NCBI GenBank assembly: GCA_003978485.1
Contig: QNZF01000025.1
Coordinates: 1 to 51,093, forward strand
DNA: 51,093 nucleotides
Reading direction: 5' to 3'
DNA from: Persephonella sp.
GTDB lineage: Bacteria; Aquificota; Aquificia; Aquificales; Hydrogenothermaceae
A program made the translations under genes and the position numbers. The notes under the pieces were generated by a model that made no database searches, was not told the origin of the DNA, and saw only the letters and a program-made list of their open reading frames with translations. Below, in pieces: positions 21,968 to 24,754 of the stretch (the first letter of the stretch is position 1; the number at the start of each line of letters is the position of its first letter).

Positions 21968-22972
21968 ATGAGTTTACTTGGGAAAATATTAGTTAGAAAA
22001 AAAGAGGAACTTGAAGAAAACAGTATAGGAAGGGAAAACTTAGGAATTCATCCTTTAGTTTCTATAAAAAGAAGGTATAAAGAGGCTAAAGATTATATCC
22101 TAATAGTCTCAGCAACTATATTTTTAGGAACAGTTATGGGGGTTTTAGCAAAATTTGTTATAAATGACAAAAATTTTGAAGAAAAAAAGGAGGTTTATAT
22201 AACAAAAATTTCACAGAAAAATGAAAATTTTATGAAAAATATTGACAATTTAGAAAAAAAGCAAAAATTAGAAAACATAAATAAAGGGAAAGATGAAGAA
22301 AAATTGGTAAATCAAAAGAAAATTTTATCTAAAACTGAACAAAATAAGGCAATTGAGACAAAAATTGTCAATAAAGATGTTTTAGATGAGAAAAAAGTTT
22401 TAGTTAAAAAAATATTGGATAAAGCTAGGATTAAGGAGCTTTCAGGAGATTTGGAAGAGGCATTAATAATGTATAAAAAGGCTTGGGTATTAGATAGGAA
22501 TAATTTAGATATTTTGTTTAAATTAGCAGTTTTAAACTTTAAACTTGGAAATTTTAAAAATTCTATAAAGTATGCACAGGAAGTTTTAAAAATAAAAAAA
22601 GACTTTATGCCTGCAATACTATTACTTGGTAAAGCTTACGACAAACTGGGAGATACCTCTAAGGCTTTAACAATTTTAGAAGAGGCTTACTTTTACTATC
22701 CTGAGAATAAAGATTTAGTTGAATTATTAGCTAGGCTTTACGAAAAACAAGGAGACTATCTGGTAGCTAAAGATTACTATGAAGTTTTAGCAAATATGGG
22801 ATATATAGAGGGGGATTTAGGTTTAGCAAAAATATATGAAAAATTGGGGGATAGAAAGAAAGCTTACAAATATTACAAAAAGGTTTACGAAAACCCTAAC
22901 ATAACAGAAGAATTAAGGGCAAAAATTGAGCAAAAATTAATTTCTTTAGAGGATAACGATGAAGGTATTTGA
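21968..22972 (+). CDS. Membrane-anchored TPR-repeat protein
   Basis: A 334-residue protein with a charged cytoplasmic N-terminus (1-40), one transmembrane segment (about 42-65), and a long Lys/Glu/Asn-rich stretch (68-145). Four to five TPR motifs follow (about 150-325), for example DLEEALIMYKKAWVLDRNN and AILLLGKAYDKLGDTSKAL. Topology suggests the TPRs face the periplasm. The SD AGGAGG precedes the ATG. The end overlaps the following NtrC-like gene by 14 bp, so they are translated together and probably act together. No enzyme motif is seen. Confidence 0.82.
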   Translation: MSLLGKILVRKKEELEENSIGRENLGIHPLVSIKRRYKEAKDYILIVSATIFLGTVMGVLAKFVINDKNFEEKKEVYITKISQKNENFMKNIDNLEKKQKLENINKGKDEEKLVNQKKILSKTEQNKAIETKIVNKDVLDEKKVLVKKILDKARIKELSGDLEEALIMYKKAWVLDRNNLDILFKLAVLNFKLGNFKNSIKYAQEVLKIKKDFMPAILLLGKAYDKLGDTSKALTILEEAYFYYPENKDLVELLARLYEKQGDYLVAKDYYEVLANMGYIEGDLGLAKIYEKLGDRKKAYKYYKKVYENPNITEELRAKIEQKLISLEDNDEGI

Positions 22973-24209
22973 AGAAAGCTTTAGCTTACTAATAAATAAA
23001 AATCTTTTTATACAGTGGATTAATGAAGATTTTGCTTACTATCTAGGATATACAAAGGACGACCTAATAGGTAAATCTGCGTCTTACATAATCGATACTA
23101 ATGTTTTAAACAATATAAACTTATCAAAAGTATTTGGAAAGGTTAAGGATAGTGCTAATAACTCCTACAGTGGAACATTCTTAATATCACGAATATTAGA
23201 TAGGCATGGAGAATTAAAGGGATACTTTATACAGTTTATACTTGAAAGTGGAGAGTTAAATAAAGAGGACTTTTTTATCTTCTCTACGAACAATCAAAAT
23301 ATGAAAAAGGTTTTAGACAAAGCCCTACTGGTAGCACAGTCTAACATACCAATACTAATAATAGGTGAAACAGGGACAGGAAAAACAAGCTTAGCAAAAT
23401 TTATCCATATAAACAGTGGTAGTGGAGCTTTTCCGTTGGTATCTGTTAATTTGCCTTCATTAAGTGAAGAAAAATTTGACATAGAAATGTTTGGATACGA
23501 AAAAGGAGCTTTTATAGGAGCTAACTATTCTAAAGTAGGTAAAGTTGAGCTTGCAAACAACGGAACTTTACTCTTAGAGAATGTAGACGAGGCATCAACA
23601 CCTGTACAATCAAAACTATCATCATTTTTAGAAAATATGGAATATGAAAAGTTAGGTAGTAATAAACTGAAAAGAGTTAATATTAGAGTTATCTCTACTT
23701 CCTCTAAAGATTTATTAGAAAAAATCAAAGATAAAAAGTTTAAACTTGAGCTTTACTATAAATTGGCAGTAATAAAACTTGAGATACCACCTTTAAGGGA
23801 AAGAAGGGAAGATATTCCCACCCTTGTAAATAAGTTTTTATCACAGAGAAATAAACAGATAAAACCAAGGGCTTTAAAATATCTAATGGAACAGGAATGG
23901 TACGGAAACTTAAGAGAACTTTTCTCTGTTTTAGAAAGTGCAGTAATACTATCTAAAAACGATTTTATAGATATTCAACACATAACAGACCAGTTTTACA
24001 CTTTTAAAGAGATAACTTCCACTAAAGAAGAGATAACAGAGCCTAAACTTTCGGAAGAAAAATTATTTAATGAAAAGGAAAGAATAAAAATAGCTTTAAG
24101 GAAAACAAATGGAAATAGAAAGAGAGCGGCAGAGCTTTTAGGAATAAGCGTCCCAACACTTTGGAGAAAAATGAAGAAGTATAATCTTTTAGAGGAGTTT
24201 AAGAAATAA
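22959..24209 (+). CDS. NtrC-like protein (PAS, AAA+, Fis-type HTH) with altered sigma-54 motifs
   Basis: A 416-residue protein: a PAS-like sensor domain (about 5-95), a sigma-54-activator-type AAA+ domain (about 110-340) and a Fis-type HTH (388-409, RAAELLGISVPTLWRKMKKY). Walker A is intact (GETGTGKT, 136-143), and the arginine-finger region PPLRERREDI (277-286) is normal. The sigma-54-contacting loop reads GAFIGA (183-188) instead of GAFTGA. The Walker B segment reads LLLEN (204-208) instead of a hydrophobic run ending Asp-Glu. ATPase and sigma-54 remodelling may therefore be impaired, leaving a DNA-binding regulator. It follows a membrane TPR protein with overlap. Confidence 0.85.
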   Translation: MKVFEESFSLLINKNLFIQWINEDFAYYLGYTKDDLIGKSASYIIDTNVLNNINLSKVFGKVKDSANNSYSGTFLISRILDRHGELKGYFIQFILESGELNKEDFFIFSTNNQNMKKVLDKALLVAQSNIPILIIGETGTGKTSLAKFIHINSGSGAFPLVSVNLPSLSEEKFDIEMFGYEKGAFIGANYSKVGKVELANNGTLLLENVDEASTPVQSKLSSFLENMEYEKLGSNKLKRVNIRVISTSSKDLLEKIKDKKFKLELYYKLAVIKLEIPPLRERREDIPTLVNKFLSQRNKQIKPRALKYLMEQEWYGNLRELFSVLESAVILSKNDFIDIQHITDQFYTFKEITSTKEEITEPKLSEEKLFNEKERIKIALRKTNGNRKRAAELLGISVPTLWRKMKKYNLLEEFKK

Positions 24210-24218
24210 TTGGTCTAT

Positions 24219-24648
24219 CTATACACCTAAAAAGGTCTCAAATTTTGATACAGTTTGATAAATAGTGTCATTACATCTGTATATCTTTCTTCTCTCCAGA
24301 TTAGTTTTAAGCAATGACTTAAACTCTCTTACTAATACATTAACCATAATTTTAGCTATGTCTGAACCAGTTTGCATCTGCTATAAGCTTATCAACAGGT
24401 TTTTGTATGTTTTTTATTTTTTTATTTTCAAAATGTAGTTTTTCTTTACCTTTAATGTATCTTTCTAAAAAGTTAACAGATATTTAGATTAGTTTTTTTA
24501 AATCTTAGAGTTTTTTAGAGGCTTTTTATAATTTGTTAACTGCTGATTTTTTACTTATTTGAACGCCTAAGGTTAGTGTTATACTATCCACTGTTTAGCC
24601 TTTCTCAAATAGTACGAGTATATAACCAAGTAAACAGAATAAACTCAC
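24219..24648 (-). pseudogene. Decayed transposase-like gene
   Basis: One minus-strand frame starting from a GTG at 24646-24648 stays protein-like for about 100 codons although it holds four in-frame TAA stops. It includes GYILVLFEKG, the HTH-like TVDSITLTLGVQISKKSAV, and NFLERYIKGKEKLHFENKK. After a frameshift it continues SDIAKIMVNVLVREFKSLL, and after another it reads ERYTDVMTLFIKLYQNLRPF. The closing in-frame stop is at 24219-24221. This pattern fits a long-dead insertion-sequence transposase of unidentified family. No flanking inverted repeats were recognised. The rest of this gap (24210-24754) holds only the metK leader. Confidence 0.5.
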
Positions 24649-24754
24649 CTATTTAAAAATATTTTTCATCTAATATTTGCTTTATATTTTTTTGATTGAT
24701 TTATAATAAAATGAATTAGAAAAATTTTTATTGTTAATGTCAAGGAGGTTTTTA

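Follow-up and report, generated by a model that had tools for sequence, protein, structure and literature searches.

The gene at positions 22959-24209 of the DNA analysed here (the window, a stretch of 51,093 nucleotides) probably encodes a former sigma-54 activator that became uncoupled from sigma-54 in its genus and was kept as a DNA-binding regulator. Activators of this type normally spend ATP to turn on one class of promoters. To judge from alignments with its relatives, this bEBP-like protein has lost the residues that serve sigma-54 contact, ATP hydrolysis and signalling between subunits, and retains the P-loop, sensor II, the PAS-like domain and the helix-turn-helix (HTH). The source genome, a 1.16 Mb draft that is 78.6% complete, belongs to a genus of hot-vent bacteria of the Hydrogenothermaceae designated g1. 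The features to which the text refers are the following:

21968..22972, + strand: TPR protein, 334 aa, with a cytoplasmic tail (predicted) of about 42 aa carrying IHPL, one TM helix (aa 43-61) and the TPR domain
22959..22972, + strand: overlap of the TPR and bEBP genes, 14 nt
22959..24209, + strand: bEBP-like regulator, 416 aa, with PAS-like domain, AAA+ domain of the sigma-54 interaction type, lid and Fis-type HTH
22959..23246, + strand: N-terminal PAS-like domain, aa 1-96 (PAS_9 match of 23.6 bits, under its Pfam cut-off of 27; confident alpha/beta fold in the AlphaFold model)
23364..23387, + strand: Walker A GETGTGKT, aa 136-143, kept
23505..23522, + strand: loop L1, GAFIGA, aa 183-188, with Ile at the Thr186 position
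23568..23582, + strand: degenerate Walker B LLLEN, aa 204-208, canonical in all orthologues elsewhere and in both congeners
23691..23705, + strand: sensor I ISTSS, aa 245-249, without the Asn
23739..23762, + strand: arginine-finger segment FKLELYYK, aa 261-268, with Lys in place of both Arg (K262, K268)
23904..23921, + strand: sensor II GNLREL, aa 316-321, kept
24072..24182, + strand: Fis-type HTH, aa 372-408 (HTH_8), with none of 19 invariant positions changed

The product is a one-component NtrC-type protein in which Pfam recognizes Sigma54_activat (159.7 bits), AAA_lid_14 (63.4 bits) and HTH_8 (56 bits, for a cut-off of 22). An earlier note, made from the bare sequence, had described it as an NtrC-type protein with a GAFIGA motif, an intact P-loop and an intact HTH, and this part of the description holds. 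The AlphaFold model has a mean pLDDT of 87.5, with the AAA+ blocks mostly above 90, and the nearest solved structures are the AAA+ domains of FleQ, NtrC1, FlrC, LuxO, PspF and VpsR (Z 25-29). Among proteins of solved structure, Aquifex aeolicus NtrC1 comes nearest in sequence (E 5.7e-59; structures 4l4u, 1ny5 and 3m0e); it has the AAA+ domain and the Fis HTH in common with the window protein, but differs from it in its canonical motor residues and receiver domain. Between the gene and the next one downstream lie some 500 nt devoid of any large ORF (24212-24700), possibly a decayed gene, for which a search of the genome for a second copy returned nothing beyond one 38-base match. In both congeners the gene following the bEBP (L035:10579-11196 and L033:907-1524) encodes a possibly pilin-like protein of 205 aa whose N-terminal segment is hydrophobic; no gene of this kind adjoins the window bEBP, and the G002 copy gave no Pfam match.

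The changes in the AAA+ domain affect several elements of the motor. Loop L1 has its full length and was altered by substitution. The earlier note considered the Walker B acids replaced, which is right for the catalytic Glu, now Asn (E208N), and less so for the other acid, which is kept in type as a conservative change of Asp to Glu. It also held the arginine-finger region to be intact; in fact, the FRxDL(Y/F)YR of other genera reads FKLELYYK here, with neither Arg left, and the change of sensor I from ISATN to ISTSS had been overlooked. By structural alignments, which give a numbering offset of 100, the positions concerned correspond to T86, E108, R162 and R168 of PspF, the last being the arginine finger that equals R299 of NtrC1 (PMC7175178). 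At Walker B, the GAT GAG/GAA of the orthologues is GAG AAT in the window, so that two neighbouring in-frame codons differ by several bases. Sequencing error or frameshift was ruled out as an origin by these in-frame codon changes, by the open frame and by the losses common to the congeners.

Orthologues of the regulator (matches at E <= 1e-75) were found in 16 of 41 Hydrogenothermaceae genomes, representing five of ten genera. All 13 from the four genera other than g1 carry GAFTGA, LFLDE, ISATN and FRxDL(Y/F)YR. All three g1 species in the comparison (the window genome, G001 and G002) lack the GAFTGA Thr (replaced by Ile, Ala and Ala, the congener loops reading GAFAGA and GAFAGV), the sensor I Asn (ISTSS in each) and the second finger Arg. 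The losses of Walker B and of the first finger Arg are confined to the window copy, one of the three, Walker B being LLFDE in both congeners. The question raised earlier of whether the changes are fixed among orthologues is thus answered in favour of fixation for the Thr, absent from all three g1 species, and against it for Walker B. Normal orthologues in the same organism group had been named as a sign of local mutation or sequencing error; they do occur in other genera, but not in g1, and the in-frame codons exclude the error. The glutamate-switch pair was affected differently within the genus: in the window copy the Glu is replaced (E208N) and Asn164 retained, whereas in the congeners it is the Asn that is replaced (N164R) and the Glu that remains, so that the switch appears from these alignments to be broken by two routes.

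Such a change in the loop stands apart from the bEBP background examined. From 99 other bEBP loci, fetched by similarity and therefore no census, 92 yielded 95 full AAA+ segments, in which the fourth position of GAFTGA is Thr or Ser in 87 cases; the remaining eight, all from Clostridia, have no L1 loop, and not one of the 95 has Thr replaced by a nonpolar residue in an intact loop. The other full-length bEBP segments of g1 (seven, from eight loci) keep Walker B, the sensor I Asn and both Arg, with GAFTGA in six and GAFSGA in one. Published surveys report GAFTGA in its exact form for 25 of 37 EBPs of Desulfovibrio vulgaris and 355 of 490 of Clostridiales (PMC4641369, PMC6615313), and about 110 minor deviations among some 5000 EBPs, often Pro in place of Thr/Ser (PMC3162934). 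The loop-less clostridial proteins (L109-L114, L120, L124) have mostly lost the Walker A lysine, and their HTH region aligns. They resemble the window protein in being degenerate AAA+ proteins of the same superfamily with an aligned HTH, but form a separate lineage in which loop L1 is missing and Walker A often lost. A different situation was observed in seven genomes of f3/g12 (G038, G040, G042, G044, G046, G048 and G050), where the sigma-54 DNA-binding domain is absent in every case and the bEBP query gave weak-to-moderate matches (best E 1e-34 to 1e-39), which may represent either bEBP descendants that do without sigma-54 or AAA+ proteins of another kind.

Regulators with a comparable history have been described. 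Like the window protein, the NtrC proteins of Rhodobacter capsulatus and Caulobacter and HupR have bEBP ancestry and have lost sigma-54 contact, and their action at sigma-70 promoters is reported or inferred (PMC10274813; for HupR PMC3162934). Among published models R. capsulatus NtrC comes closest: it works with sigma-70, and for its action ATP has to be bound but need not be hydrolysed (PMC10274813). In it and in Caulobacter NtrC, however, the loop is deleted, and both are two-component response regulators (PMC10274813), while the window protein has a full-length loop with point changes, a PAS-like N-terminus and a TPR partner, and has lost catalytic residues as well. TyrR and DhaR of E. coli and VpsR of V. 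cholerae likewise combine descent from sigma-54 activators with a defective GAFTGA, and are sigma-70 or probable sigma-70 regulators (PMC3162934); the VpsR structure superimposes on the window model with Z 25.4 and an rmsd of 3.2 A over 237 residues. These three differ in having a small deletion in GAFTGA instead of a substitution and other input domains, and the portion of the source that was available mentions no tie to a TPR gene (PMC3162934).

The decayed protein would still fold as an AAA+ domain and might bind ATP without useful hydrolysis, the nucleotide-bound domain serving as an assembly or ligand-binding scaffold and not as a motor. The HTH would bind DNA at ancestral sites and regulation would take place at ordinary sigma-70-type promoters, with the protein acting as a repressor or contact activator in the manner reported for R. 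capsulatus NtrC, and the membrane TPR protein may set the activity of the regulator or be its target. A non-classical use of the AAA+ ring, already contemplated in the earlier note, fits the evidence. Against an uncoupled regulator stands the fact that no DNA site or target promoter came to light, neither the sigma-70-type nor the sigma-54 scan pointing to a nearby target. Sigma-70-like sites around the TPR-bEBP pair are at chance level (15 found, 14.9 expected), the upstream DNA of the three g1 species is AT-rich with no clear common operator by eye, and scanning 17 neighbourhood sequences under relaxed criteria detected no sigma-54 promoter ahead of the TPR-bEBP unit.

The input to the regulator may be sought in the TPR gene, whose overlap with the bEBP gene was correctly pointed out in the earlier note together with its membrane anchor. 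The protein (TPR_8, 58.7 bits in Pfam) shows a single hydropathy peak, of 2.18 at aa 43-61, placed after a basic tail, from which an N-in topology with a periplasmic TPR domain is predicted; its structural model, built from one sequence, is fair (pLDDT 77.7). Linkage to the regulator is conserved in the relatives. The TPR gene lies directly upstream of the bEBP gene in 15 of the 16 genomes that have the latter, that is, in all 15 that can be tested, the two genes either overlapping by 14 or 4 nt or lying 2-4 nt apart. The bEBP gene of the sixteenth genome (G005) is preceded by just 43 nt of contig, and a TPR gene of the same type is found near the end of another contig. Among the 17 neighbourhood sequences inspected for a wider conserved context that might hint at targets, only a SIS-domain gene (Pfam SIS_2; 8/17), which we take to be gmhA-like, and an MFS gene (3/17) recur. 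In three g9 genomes (G017, G025 and G031; loci L042, L043 and L045) a tmRNA-like sequence was seen by eye just upstream of the SIS-domain, TPR and bEBP genes. A literature search covering titles and the beginnings of abstracts returned no description of the TPR-bEBP pair of Hydrogenothermaceae.

The TPR gene has a wider distribution than its partner. Its profile matches 31 of the 41 genomes at E <= 1e-12, and 13 loci were fetched as having no adjoining bEBP orthologue (nine from g8, three from g5 and that of G005), a set from which weaker matches in G026, G035 and G064 were left out. The bEBP gene is absent near the TPR gene in all 12 g8 and g5 loci; in nine of nine g8 loci and two of three g5 loci the next gene is a convergent SIS-domain gene, which leaves no room for a bEBP, whereas in G004 the bEBP gene sits between the TPR and SIS-domain genes. 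Loci with and without a bEBP alike, these 12 included, preserve the [IV][HN]P[LF] motif of the tail, which was consequently rejected as a bEBP-specific contact.

Membrane-linked control of the regulator by the TPR protein is plausible. In its more explicit form, the periplasmic TPR domain would sense the state of the envelope and the cytoplasmic tail would hold or release the regulator, a tentative proposal that concerns the input and is compatible with uncoupling from sigma-54. The constant upstream position of the TPR gene, the lack of any testable bEBP orthologue without it, the predicted topology and the conserved tail motif all speak for such an arrangement; on the other hand, adjacency alone fits co-regulation equally, and the persistence of gene and motif in two genera without an adjoining bEBP weakens the periplasm-to-DNA route suggested in the earlier note, which stays unproven. 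A more elaborate version, which we regard as doubtful, would see in g1 a motor-to-non-motor conversion under way: sigma-54 contact, sensor I and the second Arg would have been lost before the genus split, its sub-lineages would then have broken opposite halves of the glutamate switch, and the nucleotide-bound AAA+ domain would have become a scaffold loaded or released by the membrane TPR protein, giving a membrane-to-promoter switch that needs neither ATP hydrolysis nor sigma-54.

Another possibility is that the bEBP gene no longer matters and is heading for loss. On the rpoB tree of 26 genomes, which does not include the window assembly (it has no rpoB) and whose support values are as printed after re-rooting, g8 groups with g4 inside the bEBP-bearing clade, so that loss in g8 is simpler than several gains. 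With the bEBP wholly gone in g8, decay in g1 could be a step in the same direction, and the three g1 genomes, two of which are incomplete, are small (1.1-1.4 Mb). The distribution of changes speaks against this course. Where all 13 outgroup orthologues agree on a residue, the window copy departs from it at 47/114 positions in the AAA+ domain, 6/27 in the lid, 2/9 in the PAS-like domain and 0/19 in the HTH (AAA+ versus HTH, Fisher p = 0.00015), and with a fixed topology in which g1 contributes 3 of 16 taxa, its share of the tree length is 58% for the AAA+ core, 27% for the lid, 15% for PAS and 6% for the HTH. Such a concentration in the AAA+ core is not expected from loss of function of the whole gene. 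Identity between the window copy and G002 is 65% in the AAA+ core, 74% in the PAS region and 91% in the HTH. In six of seven pairs compared outside g1, the AAA+ core (85-98%) exceeds the other two parts in conservation, the seventh (G012/G018) having 98% in the HTH versus 96% in the AAA+ core.

General fast evolution of g1, a genus with a long rpoB branch (0.168), was rejected as the cause, because in a canonical bEBP from the same three species no part is better conserved than the AAA+ core (91-92%, versus 80-83% in the HTH and 73-74% in the N-terminal domain), the corresponding values for the decayed protein being 62-65% in the AAA+ core and 91% in the HTH. This opposite pattern indicates that the AAA+ decay reflects neither general fast evolution nor pseudogene decay. 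In addition, the frame is open in all three species, and the closest pair (G001 and G002) has a dN/dS of 0.05-0.10 with an HTH identical over 45 residues, dN/dS between the window copy and its congeners being rough since dS is there about 1.8, near saturation. By these measures the gene is under purifying selection and not a pseudogene, and its terminal decay is unlikely.

The sigma factor itself is available to the organism: the presence of rpoN, which the earlier note had proposed to verify, was established on contig C14 of the window genome, with both the DNA-binding and the activator-interacting domains, so that loss of sigma-54 does not explain the motif losses. The gene was also found in G001, and not in G002, a genome 69% complete. 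A strict scan of the window genome gave 13 sites resembling -24/-12 elements versus two for a reversed control pattern. In the one-contig g9 genome G025, the sigma-54 DNA-binding domain is represented by no more than a fragment of 24 residues, lying in a frame of 36 aa (C1:393910-393981); the TPR-linked bEBP of this genome keeps GAFTGA, and its rpoN may be broken or frameshifted.

With regard to the biochemistry, PspF E108Q is defective in hydrolysis and yet remodels sigma-54 complexes, in a manner that requires the GAFTGA motif (PMC4132715), which means that the Walker B change alone is no proof of lost activation. That the window protein is still a sigma-54 activator with unusual motifs is nevertheless highly improbable, for although PspF E108Q, the tolerance reported for some GAFTGA variants (PMC4641369, PMC6615313), the presence of rpoN and the excess of sigma-54-like sites can be cited in its favour, PspF T86A impairs remodelling (PMC4132715), a nonpolar residue in place of the Thr has no counterpart in the background set, and the one protein combines changes of the Thr, of the Asn in sensor I, of the two finger Arg and of the glutamate switch. 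Considering the Thr, sensor I and Arg losses together, activation of sigma-54 by it would be very unlikely.

In summary, the kind of event recorded here is already known, several sigma-70 regulators being thought to derive from sigma-54 activators, although the named cases are end points in which the loop has been deleted or altered (PMC10274813, PMC3162934). At the level of sequence, the uncoupling in g1 appears real, well supported and specific to this lineage. Part of its value lies in the conserved TPR-bEBP gene pair of the Hydrogenothermaceae. A single family presents side by side the intact regulator (g3, g4, g7 and g9), a form decayed by point changes with a frozen HTH (g1) and its absence (g8 and probably g5), a series that makes the order of the losses testable with natural homologues, as well as the question of which AAA+ functions remain needed after sigma-54 has been abandoned.
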